A stretch of 5,144 nt of DNA from Planctomycetota bacterium (GTDB lineage Bacteria > Planctomycetota > Phycisphaerae > WQYP01): NCBI GenBank assembly GCA_021798635.1, contig JAJZGH010000301.1, positions 1 through 5,144 on the forward strand, written 5' to 3'. Shown one piece after another: positions 1,182-4,998 of the stretch (within the stretch, counting starts at the first letter, position 1; the number at the start of each line of letters is the position of its first letter). The translations under genes were made by a program, and so were the position numbers. Under the pieces are notes generated by a model. The model saw nothing but the letters and a program-made list of their open reading frames with translations. It had not been told where the DNA came from and searched no databases.

Positions 1182-1892
1182 TTACTCGGACAAACTCCTG
1201 GTCTGCAACTGATGCAACTTCCCAATACCTTTTACCGCGACCTTCAACATGGAATTAAATTGCCTGGGAGTAAATGTGGCATGTTCGCCGGTGGCTTGAA
1301 GTTCCACAAACGTGCCATCTTTAAGCATGGCGACATTCATATCCACTTGGGCGGTGGAATCTTCACTGTAATCCAAATCCAGAACCGCCGTATTGCGGAC
1401 AATCCCCACGCTGATCGCTGCGACTTGGCCAGTCACCGGATTGGCGGAAAGAACAGAATCGTTTCTGGCGCGGTGCACGGCATCGCACAGTGCAATATAG
1501 GCACCGGTGATGGCTGCCGTGCGTGTGCCGCCGTCCGCCTGTATCACGTCACAATCCAGCCACAGTGTGTTTTCGCCGAGCTTCTTCAGGTCAATGACAC
1601 TGCGCAGCACGCGGCCGATCAGGCGTTGAATTTCCACGCTGCGCCCGTCCGGCTTGCCGCTGTCGCGTTTTTTCCGTGTGTTGGTAGATGAGGGAAGCAT
1701 GCCATATTCCGCGGTCAGCCAGCCCTGCCCTTTGCCCGCCAGCCACGGCGGCACGCCTTTCTCAATGATGGCCGTGCATAACACACGCGTATGGCCAAAA
1801 CTGATCAACACCGATCCGCCGGCATTGCGTGTAAAATTCCGCTGGATCGTGACCTTCCGTAACTGGTCCGCTTTTCGTGAGTCCTGTCGCAT
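1182..1892 (-). CDS. rph: Ribonuclease PH
   Basis: RNase PH, a phosphate-dependent 3'-to-5' exoribonuclease that trims the 3' ends of tRNA precursors and other RNAs in the cytoplasm, normally as a hexameric ring. The 236 residues match the family length of about 240. Visible family blocks are GSVLISFGHTRVLCTA (26-41), GWLTAEYGMLP (57-67), VEIQRLIGRVLR (86-97), DCDVIQADGGTRTAAITGAY (113-132, with the phosphate-binding GGTRT at 121-125), the metal-ligand aspartates D178 and D184 in YSEDSTAQVDMN, and FVELQATGEHATF. The ATG at 1892 is chosen because AAAGGAA stands four bases before it and the protein then begins MRQDSRKADQLR, as in homologues. An in-frame ATG at 1943 adds 17 non-conserved residues. 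The gene lies 96 bases downstream of the proteasome-like gene on the same strand and may be read from the same promoter. Confidence 0.96.
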   Translation of the reverse strand: MRQDSRKADQLRKVTIQRNFTRNAGGSVLISFGHTRVLCTAIIEKGVPPWLAGKGQGWLTAEYGMLPSSTNTRKKRDSGKPDGRSVEIQRLIGRVLRSVIDLKKLGENTLWLDCDVIQADGGTRTAAITGAYIALCDAVHRARNDSVLSANPVTGQVAAISVGIVRNTAVLDLDYSEDSTAQVDMNVAMLKDGTFVELQATGEHATFTPRQFNSMLKVAVKGIGKLHQLQTRSLSE

Positions 1893-1896
1893 GAGC

Positions 1897-1903
1897 TTCC
1901 TTT
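1897..1903 (-). promoter_or_regulatory. Ribosome binding site of rph
   Basis: The minus strand reads AAAGGAA four bases before the ATG at 1892-1890. It decides the start against the in-frame upstream ATG at 1943, which has no comparable site. Confidence 0.65.
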
Positions 1904-1988
1904 CGTTGGTGTTCAAGAAATGTGATTTCGACTCTGCCTGCAATCATCCTGGTCGCCAATCTCTCCATATTTGGCAGGCTGGGGTGAT

Positions 1989-2714
1989 TCAGGGAGGATT
2001 TCCGGTTGTTTCCGTGACCACCCCGGAACTACTGATTGTTATTACTACCGGGCCACCGCCGATAGTGCGAGCTAGTCCCGCGCAGTGATGTAAATCAGAG
2101 ACAAACCTGATGCATGCGACCAGGAAATCGGCCCGGGAAAAAAGTGAGTTTGCCGGTGCCGGAAAGGTGTCGGGGGTGGCTTCCATGCGTTGCCGAAAAT
2201 CGTCGGTGGCAACCCGTTGGTAAAATGTTATATCGCCATCCGCGGCTGACCACGGCGTATTGTCCAAATTCGAAAAGCGTTTTTGGCTGAAAACTTCAAA
2301 CTCTGACAAAACGCCGCCGCGTGCATCATAGTTGCAGATTCTGTAAGAAACCGGTACCAATCCGGCTTTCTCTGGGTTAAATCCGCTTAGCCGAAATCCC
2401 AGTTCCGGCGATCCGGCCGCGCCGTGAATTTTCTGGACGGTGCTGCGGAGAGTATGGGCAAGCTTGTCCAAGGACGATACGTGCCCGTGCCGGGAGACAA
2501 AATCCTCGAGCCAAAGGTCGGTCGGTGTAAGCCCTATTTTCCCGAAGCCCCAAGTTCCCACCATGCCACTAAGACCTGGCAATCGCTGGAGTTTTTTCAT
2601 GCCGAAAGAAACCCGCATTTTGCGTCCGCTTTCGGTGTCGGCCTCAATGGATTCAGCAGTATCCGCGGCCATGGCCACGCCGTGCCTGGAAATATCTGTC
2701 AGAATCAGCGTCAT
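1989..2714 (-). CDS. Divergent proteasome-family Ntn hydrolase (threonine peptidase-like)
   Basis: A 241-residue protein resembling proteasome beta subunits and HslV, the Ntn hydrolases that use an N-terminal threonine as nucleophile. From the ATG at 2714 it begins Met-Thr-Leu-Ile. Removal of Met would expose Thr1, followed by GVAMAAD with Asp at mature position 17, exactly the proteasome Asp17. MKKLQRL (Lys39/Lys40) then matches the Lys33 strand, displaced by a loop about seven residues longer than usual, and GMVGTWG matches the glycine-rich segment after it. Near the C-terminus IGGGPVVITISSSGV resembles the late strand of the fold. The canonical Asp166 is not evident, and the middle third (about 60-200) is unfamiliar. 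An in-frame ATG at 2744 would bury the threonine. The 2714 start is preferred because it overlaps the preceding gene's stop in ATGA. No ATPase partner (HslU, Mpa) is present. It is not clearly HslV or Anbu, and the substrate is unknown. Confidence 0.72.
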   Translation of the reverse strand: MTLILTDISRHGVAMAADTAESIEADTESGRKMRVSFGMKKLQRLPGLSGMVGTWGFGKIGLTPTDLWLEDFVSRHGHVSSLDKLAHTLRSTVQKIHGAAGSPELGFRLSGFNPEKAGLVPVSYRICNYDARGGVLSEFEVFSQKRFSNLDNTPWSAADGDITFYQRVATDDFRQRMEATPDTFPAPANSLFSRADFLVACIRFVSDLHHCAGLARTIGGGPVVITISSSGVVTETTGNPP

Positions 2715-2965
2715 GCCTGTACCGGACTCCGGAAGGTTTTCCATCCGCTGGCAATTTCGCGTACTTGCTTCGCGGCAGCCTGTTCCACTTTCCGGACGTA
2801 GCTGGAGCCAAAGCAGGTTTGCATGTCAAAGCGGGCGTCCAACGGAACTTCCACCCTGACGGCTGCCAGCACTCGCCCCGAAGGGTTAATTGCATGGGCT
2901 GTATATGTGTGCCCAGAGTTGCCCTTGAGCCACCTGCCCTCGACCCGTATGTTTTTGCTCACCAT
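2711..2965 (-). CDS. Small 84-residue protein of unknown function, coupled to the Ntn hydrolase
   Basis: I do not recognise this protein. It is supported as a gene by an AGAGGA ribosome binding site nine bases before its ATG, an extended -10 promoter just upstream, and a four-base ATGA overlap of its stop with the start of the proteasome-like gene, which suggests translational coupling. The first half (about 5-42) looks like two or three beta strands: IRVEGRWL, HTYTAHAINPSG and RVLAAVRVEVPL. The second half (about 53-73) looks like an amphipathic helix, SYVRKVEQAAAKQVREIAS. It is basic, with one Cys (C51), and has no signal peptide or membrane segment. By position it may be a binding partner, regulator or substrate of the hydrolase, but that is inference only. 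Confidence 0.68.
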   Translation of the reverse strand: MVSKNIRVEGRWLKGNSGHTYTAHAINPSGRVLAAVRVEVPLDARFDMQTCFGSSYVRKVEQAAAKQVREIASGWKTFRSPVQA

Positions 2966-3101: not shown

Positions 3102-3881
3102 CTATAACGTGCGCAAATGAAAGCCGCCGTCGACGTCGATAACCTGACCGGTGGAAAATGGCAGCAGGCCGTCGGCAACTGCCAGCACCGCCTTGGCCAC
3201 ATCTTCAGGCTTTCCCCAGCGGCGAATTGGGGTCAGCCCGTTGGCGATCAGGGTGTCATATTTTTCCTTTACTCCGGAGGTCATATCCGTGGCGATAATC
3301 CCAGGGCGTATTTCAAAAACTCCGATATTCAATTCCGCCAGACGAGACGCGAAAAGTTTGGTCATCATCGCTAATCCGGCCTTGGCGACGCAATAATCCC
3401 CGCGATTGACACTGGCGGTATACGCACTGATGCTGGAAATGGTGATAATGTTCCCTACGCGACCGTCAAGGCCCAAAGGGTTGGATTTCATGGCATTGGC
3501 GGCCAGTTGAGAAAGAAAATAGGGGCCTTTAAGATTCACATTGATAAGTTGGTCAAAGCTGGCTTCCGTGGCCTCCAGAATATCCATCCGCTGATCCGGG
3601 GCAATACCCGCGTTGTTTACCAGCATGTCCAGGCGGCCGAAATGCGCCAGAGTTTCCGTAACCAAGCGTTGCCGATCCGCGCTATTGCCAATATCCCCCC
3701 GCACGGCATACCCGTGCCCGCCGCGCTGCTTAATGTGTTCTACGGTTTCGTCTGCCGCCGCCACGCTTGACGCATAATTTACCACCACATTCCATCCGGC
3801 GGTGCCTAAAGCTGTAGCAATGGCTTTGCCGATGCCGCGTGATCCACCTGTAACCAAGGCTGTGCGGTTATTTCTGGCCAT
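3102..3881 (-). CDS. Short-chain dehydrogenase/reductase, FabG-like (3-oxoacyl-ACP reductase family)
   Basis: A 259-residue classical SDR oxidoreductase, expected to be a soluble NAD(P)H-dependent enzyme. Visible motifs are the cofactor-binding TGGSRGIG (11-18), GDI (62-64), the structural NNAG (89-92), and the catalytic tetrad N116 (INVNLKGP), S150, Y163 and K167 (YCVAK). PG at 193-194 and the closing [12 protein letters not shown] complete the pattern. The Arg in TGGSRGIG favours NADPH. It is somewhat longer than standard FabG (about 245), with extra residues around [11 protein letters not shown] (134-144) and a HLRTL tail, so substrate identity is open; similar proteins act on acyl-ACP, sugars or other alcohols. 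It starts 22 bases after lpxD on the same strand, with only a distant GGAG as ribosome binding site. If it does reduce 3-oxoacyl-ACP, its product class is the acyl donor for LpxD. Confidence 0.9.
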
Positions 3882-3903: not shown

Positions 3904-4998
3904 TTAAAGCTGGTGCTTATTCTTCAATTCTGCCAAGGCGGCTTCAACTTCGCGCAGCCGCTTAACAATATCCGGAAGCTGCATAAAATTCAGATACACC
4001 CGGCGCGCATGTTTGAGATCCATTGAAGGCGTGCCGCCGATATCTTTGTTGGGCGCGATATCCTGTGCAATACCCGATTGCGCCGCGGCCCTTACCATGT
4101 CCCCGATGTGCAAATGGCCCGCCACCCCGACCTGTCCCGCCAGTACCACATGATGGCCGGTGCTGGCCGAGCCGGCAATGCCAACTTGGCTTACCAGCAG
4201 GTTGTGCTCCCCGATGCGGCAGTTATGCCCGATCACGACACTGTTGCCCAGTTTCGTGCCGGCACGAATCAGTGTGCTTTCCATTGCGGCACGCTCAATA
4301 ACCGTGTTGCTGCCCACCTCCACATCATCCCCCAGCACAACATTACCAATCTGTGGAATTTTGTTGTGAATGCCCTGGTGTGTGGCAAAACCGTAACCAT
4401 CACATCCCACAACCGCACCGGCCTGCAGAATCACCCGATCTCCCAGTACGCACTGGTCGTAAACGACGGATGAGGGATACATAATGCACTCACGACCGAT
4501 GCGTGCACCGGACATAATGGCAACATGTGAATATATATTGGTGTTCTCTCCGATTTCCGCATTTTCCCCGATTACCGCGAAAGGATGGATATTAACCCCT
4601 TGTCCAATCCGGGCGGATTTGGCCACCACCGCCAGAGGCGATATGCCGATCTGCGGATGCACACGGAAGCCGTGCAGCAAAACCAGAATTTGCCGAAAGC
4701 TGTAGTAAGGATCCTCGGTCTGAATTAACGCGGGTTCCCGGTTGTCAGTACGCTGCATAGTTAGGGTATCTTTTCCCACCACCACACACCCCGCCTGCGT
4801 TGTGTTGAGATGGGCCGCATATTTATGATTGGATAGAAAACTGATGTCCTGAGGACCGGCCGAGGATAAGCCATTGCAGCGTGTAATCTGCCGGTCTTTA
4901 TCACCGATGACCGTGCCCCCAACATGGGCGGCCAATTCTGCAACCGTGCGGGGGGTGGGGGGTAGTTCCGTTATCACACAATCCTGCCTTTCAAGCAT
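3904..4998 (-). CDS. lpxD: UDP-3-O-acylglucosamine N-acyltransferase LpxD
   Basis: LpxD transfers a 3-hydroxyacyl chain from acyl-ACP to the 2-amino group of UDP-3-O-acylglucosamine, the third step of lipid A synthesis in the cytoplasm, acting as a trimer. The 364 residues fall into an N-terminal uridine-binding domain (about 16-110, RTVAELAAHVGG, ISFLSNHKYA), a left-handed beta helix of hexapeptide repeats (about 115-310) and a C-terminal helical tail (about 326-364). GCDGYGF (198-204), IPQIGNVVLGDDVEVGSNT and VVIGHNCRIGEHN with the presumed catalytic His258 are family signatures. The usual DRGA after the NT motif is ERAA here. It is slightly longer than E. coli LpxD (341). The ATG at 4998 has only a weak AGG upstream. 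A GTG at 4977 follows AAAGGCAGG and would remove seven residues, so the start is uncertain. The FabG-like gene follows within 22 bases. Confidence 0.95.
   Translation of the reverse strand: MLERQDCVITELPPTPRTVAELAAHVGGTVIGDKDRQITRCNGLSSAGPQDISFLSNHKYAAHLNTTQAGCVVVGKDTLTMQRTDNREPALIQTEDPYYSFRQILVLLHGFRVHPQIGISPLAVVAKSARIGQGVNIHPFAVIGENAEIGENTNIYSHVAIMSGARIGRECIMYPSSVVYDQCVLGDRVILQAGAVVGCDGYGFATHQGIHNKIPQIGNVVLGDDVEVGSNTVIERAAMESTLIRAGTKLGNSVVIGHNCRIGEHNLLVSQVGIAGSASTGHHVVLAGQVGVAGHLHIGDMVRAAAQSGIAQDIAPNKDIGGTPSMDLKHARRVYLNFMQLPDIVKRLREVEAALAELKNKHQL

Follow-up and report, generated by a model that had tools for sequence, protein, structure and literature searches.

What does a proteasome-like hydrolase do when no ATPase accompanies it? 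This question is raised by a gene on the minus strand (1989..2714) of a 5,144-nucleotide stretch of planctomycete DNA (contig JAJZGH010000301.1 of assembly GCA_021798635.1), which was analyzed as a whole and is referred to here as the window. The gene encodes a protein of 241 amino acids (aa) that an earlier note had placed among the N-terminal nucleophile (Ntn) hydrolases of the proteasome type. Our analysis suggests that it is a divergent and compact proteasome-like Ntn hydrolase, distinct from HslV, Anbu, and 20S proteasome subunits, and that its gene overlaps, and is probably translationally coupled to, a preceding gene for a partner of 84 aa, the two forming an accessory cassette. We propose that the Ntn protein is a hydrolase that works independently of an ATPase under the control of its partner and probably belongs to a conflict or defense module, and we give this reading a probability of roughly 45%. 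The pair may thus serve defense instead of everyday protein disposal, and if this is true, the proteasome fold would count among the immune effectors. Neither the coupled partner gene nor the accessory, defense-linked context figures in the earlier note.

Predicted catalytic residues and fold

The longest open frame of the Ntn gene spans 1989-2744(-), and the ATG at 2714 gives the shorter form 1989-2714. The gene is supported by its frame, its relatives, the predicted fold, and the alignment. We preferred this ATG as the start because it forms an ATGA overlap with the stop codon of the 84-aa gene and because the motif MTLxxT opens most of the relatives whose start is complete (a few are annotated as longer or shorter). 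The Met-Thr start, the Asp at mature position 17, and the Lys pair at mature positions 39 and 40 described in the earlier note are all present in the protein (Met1-Thr2, Asp18, and Lys40-Lys41). Conservation was counted in an alignment of 33 rows, one of which is a member of a sister family. Thr2 (codon 2709..2711), the predicted nucleophile that would become Thr1 once Met1 is removed, was found in all 28 rows that cover the position (5 rows begin too late); Asp18 (2661..2663), Lys41 (2592..2594), and Gly56 (2547..2549) were invariant (33/33 each), and Ile218 was kept in 30/30 covering rows. The predicted catalytic threonine, aspartate, and lysine were conserved across the homologs looked at. 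The lysine pair stood only in part, since Lys40 is a lysine in just 9/33 rows and it is Lys41 that is conserved. Alignment of the family to HslV with hhalign, which was short and weak (30 columns, probability [Prob] 5), placed Lys41 on HslV Lys33 and Asp18 on Asp17 and reproduced the previously noted loop before the lysine, 7 residues longer than in HslV. Gly56 would correspond to Gly47 by spacing. As judged from the sequences, equivalents of the Thr/Ser nucleophile, Asp17, Lys33, and Gly47 are thus conserved in the family, with the Asp/Lys pairing taken from that weak alignment; an equivalent of Asp166 was not seen on inspection by eye. By analogy with the Ntn mechanism, loss of Met1 would free Thr2 to attack an amide as nucleophile, Lys41 and Asp18 would assist or tune it, and Gly56 would lie in the oxyanion hole.

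The protein was modeled with a proteasome-type fold. The model carries the helices of ring-forming subunits (residues 65-76, 82-97, 163-168 with 171-179, and 191-211) and terminates in a strand (233-237), so that the C-terminal helix H5, a feature of Anbu, is absent. The linker between H3 and H4 is predicted to comprise about 11 residues (180-190; mean predicted local distance difference test [pLDDT] score of 59 over 181-190), and the hairpin between strands S3 and S4 ahead of Lys41 is lengthened and free of helices. All 50 structural matches listed by Foldseek were of the proteasome type. Searches with the sequence gave no Pfam match at E values up to 10, PF00227 (Proteasome) included; a single chance-level row in NCBIfam (E 0.12, 11.9 of 354 bits) and no HslV model; and chance-level rows or nothing among PDB sequences. 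A sequence bridge was provided by the sister family, which aligned to the Ntn family with an hhalign E value of 4.9e-42 and 12/24 rows of which matched PF00227 at E <= 1, the best of them (2.4e-5) lying above the Pfam cut-off. Membership in the proteasome superfamily is thus supported by the predicted fold, the conserved catalytic residues, and this bridge. In the sister family itself, the nucleophile position is occupied by Ser in 21/24 rows and by Thr in 3/24, a natural Ser/Thr swap.

A retained proteasome fold could also serve an Ntn amidase or acylase acting on a small molecule. Other Ntn hydrolases named in PMC8665760 do act on small molecules, and the family-specific central third of our protein could form a pocket; the uniformly proteasome-type structural matches, a list that is a second look at the Foldseek ranking only, speak against such an enzyme, which we regard as improbable. 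Far less probable still is an ordinary, fast-diverged HslV or Anbu. HslV and the window protein share an N-terminal Thr, and Asp17/Lys33 fall against Asp18/Lys41 in the short, weak alignment, but the window protein has the longer loop before the lysine and a longer chain, it matches neither PF00227 nor an HslV model, and the Ntn family reached an hhalign Prob of only 5 both against an HslV set (n=34) and against two Anbu-like proteins. Anbu identity was rejected on the missing PF00227 match and on the absence of H5 from the model. HslV identity was rejected on the missing model matches and on the lack of an HslU above cut-off. No HslU, ARC/Mpa ATPase, or alpha subunit was found among the window open reading frames (ORFs) scanned, and no HslU scored above cut-off in any of 8 draft genomes of the genus (67-95% complete, the window's own assembly not among them), 7 of which contain lower-scoring AAA+ matches. 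PF00227 proteins were likewise absent from these 8 genomes. The view that the Ntn protein lacks an ATPase partner is thereby supported for the window and the sampled genomes of the genus.

The coupled 84-aa partner and the distribution of the pair

The 84-aa partner is encoded directly upstream of the Ntn gene (2711..2965, minus strand), and its stop codon overlaps the Ntn start (ATGA); the gene is supported by its frame, a structural model, its substitution pattern, and its co-occurrence with the Ntn gene. In comparisons of the window with two congeners (L005 and L004), the Ntn gene had a ratio of nonsynonymous to synonymous substitution rates (dN/dS) of 0.15 and the 84-aa gene one of 0.15-0.18; with the same congeners, values of 0.04, 0.09, and 0.12 were obtained for the neighboring genes rph, SDR, and lpxD. 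Based on their dN/dS, both ORFs look like coding, maintained genes under purifying selection. AlphaFold2 predicted a beta-beta-beta-alpha arrangement for the 84-aa protein (strands 7-14, 19-26, and 32-40; helices 48-52 and 54-72) with a pLDDT of 78.0 and a predicted template modeling score (pTM) of 0.66, residues 76-84 falling below a pLDDT of 50. A TruB_C match (E 0.017) was under the Pfam cut-off and was dropped. Judged from the genes alone, the order and overlap of the pair fit a toxin-antitoxin arrangement. From this context, the 84-aa partner would hold or trigger the Ntn enzyme, which would need no dedicated ATPase and would act on a restricted range of targets.

The pair lies between rph (RNase PH; 1182..1943) and a gene for a short-chain dehydrogenase/reductase (SDR) of the 3-ketoacyl-acyl carrier protein reductase type (3102..3881), followed by lpxD (3904..4998), all assigned by Pfam/NCBIfam scans. 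The order on the minus strand is lpxD, SDR, 84-aa ORF, Ntn gene, and rph, beyond which a gene for a phosphotransferase system (PTS) IIA protein is located on the plus strand. Among 41 relatives, the Ntn gene was detected in 3, all within the genus represented by the 8 sampled genomes, and these three are also the only ones with a clear 84-aa gene (E 2.9e-46 or better); the remaining rows of the 84-aa search, mostly in 14 further genomes, had E values of 0.03 or worse. L004 and L005 show the same order and overlap of the two genes as the window. The third carrier (G001; L006:2870-3178) keeps its 84-aa gene intact, while its Ntn gene shows an internal deletion and a frameshift. The blast segments of this broken gene overlap by 12 bases, and an assembly fault is possible because the contig coverage is low (2.95). 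In a congener without the pair (G006), lpxD, SDR, and rph adjoin, with about 130 bases from SDR to rph. Another (G003; L073:1095-3143) is missing both the pair and SDR between lpxD and rph, and the site therefore seems prone to change. These arrangements identify the two genes as an accessory pair that is gained or lost together at one site. The gene rph was found in 6/8 genomes of the genus, so the absence of the pair from the other two says little, and some absences within the genus may reflect incompleteness.

Beyond the genus, the Ntn family is rare. Three genomes of other lineages served as centers of such counts (those of the distant loci L008, L007, and L009, described below), and the family was found in 1/398, 1/384, and 1/7 genomes of their respective phyla, each time in the center genome itself. 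In the phylum of the window, 3/392 genomes matched, corresponding to the broken congener, a member of the sister family, and a protein of a longer, 446-aa type. This distribution bears on the possibility that the Ntn protein is a housekeeping, ATPase-independent clean-up peptidase for unstructured proteins, as proposed for BPH and the uncapped 20S proteasome, with the small protein as an assembly or gating factor. Such a role would agree with the helices of ring-forming subunits in the model, with the lack of HslU above cut-off in the genus, and with the position of the window pair among housekeeping genes. A steadier distribution would then be expected, and an Ntn gene present in 3/8 genomes of the genus, with one copy broken, and confined to the center genome among 398 and among 384 genomes in two other phyla disfavors it; we consider a housekeeping peptidase unlikely, albeit the strongest of the alternatives.

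Defense-gene neighborhoods of distant relatives

The reading as a conflict or phage defense module was suggested by the neighborhoods of distant relatives. Of 6 loci recovered by scanning genome contigs, three are planctomycete and of the window type, and the other three are distant. In L009 (assigned to 'bacterium' RS_10_39), the Ntn gene lies in a run of genes for a restriction-type ATPase, a DNA methylase, Vsr, a DUF3892 protein, the Ntn protein, a Cas4-like nuclease, AbiD, and GmrSD. In L008 (Bathyarchaeota), Cas1 is encoded at 2.7 kb from the Ntn gene, and a DNA methylase (assigned by eye), a ResIII helicase, an SMC-like ATPase, and a Schlafen AlbA_2 protein lie at a distance of 8-15 kb. 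In L007 (Omnitrophota), the Ntn gene is preceded by a SIR2 gene and followed by a HEPN-like gene whose Pfam score falls slightly short of the cut-off (23.6 of 24.4 bits). Seven of 10 chosen neighbors matched PADLOC models at 1e-5, the exceptions being the HEPN-like, HD-CE, and DUF3892 proteins. All three distant loci are thus near defense genes, which is suggestive only and does not amount to a proper statistic. These neighborhoods span distant bacteria and one archaeon. Among the open-license papers listed for the terms searched, judged from titles and the openings of abstracts, none placed a proteasome-like protein in phage defense.

L009 encodes a DUF3892 protein (PF13031, E 2.9e-7) upstream of its Ntn gene, at a distance of 62 bp. 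PMC12419801 describes the DUF3892 fold as consisting of three strands and a helix and the family as occurring together with Min-Wnt effectors. This topology equals that predicted for the 84-aa partner, and shared topology is not homology. In contrast to the DUF3892/Min-Wnt fusions, the genes are separate here, and the effector would be an Ntn hydrolase rather than Min-Wnt. A small gene also accompanies the sister family: in L013, a 69-aa ORF lies upstream of the Ntn gene, and the pair is situated between genes for a thiolase and a hydroxyacyl-CoA dehydrogenase (these two assigned by eye). The 69-aa protein gave no match to DUF3892 in Pfam. A bolder version of our proposal, which we hold only tentatively and consider less probable than the reading itself, would unite these cases. 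Proteasome-fold Ntn hydrolases would then be effectors in conflict or phage defense, with a small beta-beta-beta-alpha protein from the upstream gene as the sensor of infection that sets free or guides a Thr-dependent protease or ligase working independently of an ATPase. The window 84-aa/Ntn pair, the L009 DUF3892/Ntn pair, and the L013 69-aa/Ntn pair would represent three versions of one module, and L007 and L008 would employ another sensor.

Several points weigh against our reading. Neither a catalytic activity nor toxicity nor a phage phenotype is known for the pair. The window locus is not a defense island, the pair being surrounded by lpxD, SDR, rph, and the PTS IIA gene, and the Ntn gene is broken in one of the three pair-carrying congeners. 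None of 38 family members matched a PADLOC model at E 1. The 84-aa model was built on 4 near-identical sequences, its five versions ranging from a pLDDT of 78.0 to 57.2; the 84-aa protein gave no match to DUF3892 (PF13031) in Pfam; and no convincing small gene was seen directly upstream of the Ntn gene in L007 and L008. The 10 tested neighbors were hand-picked as defense-like and do not represent all neighbors, and only three distant loci were readable. The control, for which 97 of 98 ORFs from other contigs of the three distant-locus genomes were scanned (a 1762-aa ORF was left out), was weak, as 46 PADLOC families were matched with at most 2 members each; its output counts members per family, so that the number of distinct matching ORFs is not readable from it. 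The 25 of 46 control families listed include E1-E2, pVip, mad3, mad8, AriA, ATPase-Toprim, and AbiLi, whereas Cas1, AbiD, Vsr, SIR2, and the methylases are not among these 25. In our judgement, the control matches are relatives of housekeeping enzymes. The pair is a two-gene unit small enough for a direct laboratory test.

Published groups and long relatives

Fuchs, Alva and Lupas (2021) described 22 new proteasome homologs beyond HslV, Anbu, BPH, and connectase (PMC8665760). The new groups have a Thr/Asp/Lys site; the paper reports for them a proteasome-like fold, the lack of a propeptide, the lack of an AAA+ partner, and no genomic context pointing to a specific function. The broad class had therefore been published, and the placement of the window protein in a poorly characterized bacterial branch held for the superfamily and for its position outside the HslV and Anbu models but not for the restriction to bacteria, as the family also occurs in Bathyarchaeota. 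Relative to these published groups, the new elements are a related subfamily with an overlapping small partner gene, its accessory distribution, and its defense-gene neighborhoods.

Connectase, likewise a proteasome-fold enzyme without an ATPase, lacks H1 and H2 and carries a two-helix insertion between S3 and S4 (PMC8665760). It shows that the superfamily includes specific ligases, and our protein could accordingly be a ligase resembling connectase, or else a processing enzyme with a specific substrate. The tightly coupled small gene would supply a natural candidate substrate (the tail of another protein would be the other), and the lengthened S3-S4 hairpin before Lys41 lies where connectase has its insertion. 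The window model, however, contains helices 65-76 and 82-97 (H1 and H2) and no inserted helices. We rejected connectase identity on this predicted structure and rate a ligase or processing enzyme as somewhat less likely than a housekeeping peptidase.

Of the references compared, and leaving the sister family aside, the one aligning best with the Ntn family was L014, a planctomycete protein of 446 aa (Prob 96 and E 5e-9 by hhalign over 94 N-terminal columns), and alignment to six proteins of this type gave a Prob of 96.5. Other values were 79 for L060 and L062 (PF00227 proteins), 21 for L061, and 2 for L059. PMI-4, the largest new group in the table of PMC8665760, is found in phages, and an insertion between H3 and H4 marks PMI-2 to PMI-6 in that paper. 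We infer from length and phage occurrence that the 446-aa type is PMI-4. The window protein shares the Thr/Asp/Lys active site of the PMI group and differs in its length (241 aa versus about 400-450) and apparently in lacking the long insertion. The kind of Ntn hydrolase is thus already known, and the short subfamily is not tied to any published group name.

The 446-aa type matched 13 phage records and 10 plasmid records, Streptococcus satellite phages among them; in the one Streptococcus satellite phage examined, it lies near the end of the element. In three phage records, a short ORF (55-58 aa) directly follows the gene of the 400-450-aa type (L064:3871-5211; L101, L102, and L104). Homology among the small ORFs beside the long type was rejected, as four that were compared gave no alignment past a 10-residue stretch. 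L060:557-1795 and L062 (minus strand) encode PF00227-type proteins of about 250-260 aa, and a gene lies upstream of each. The products of these upstream genes are homologs of each other (34% identity at E 1e-26), and one of them has an EarA-like Pfam match barely above cut-off. They resemble the SocA/Panacea antitoxin type, for which Pfam gave no match.

A phage origin of the short Ntn type was rejected, since five IMG/VR scans, four with the Ntn family and one with the sister family, gave no relative; nor was one found in phage and plasmid records with P0018 or in plasmid records with P0057 (sister family) and P0009. Viral relatives of the Ntn family may nevertheless exist, because PHROGs family 5990 (function unknown) matches 14/33 family members at E <= 1, with a best value of 4.9e-6.
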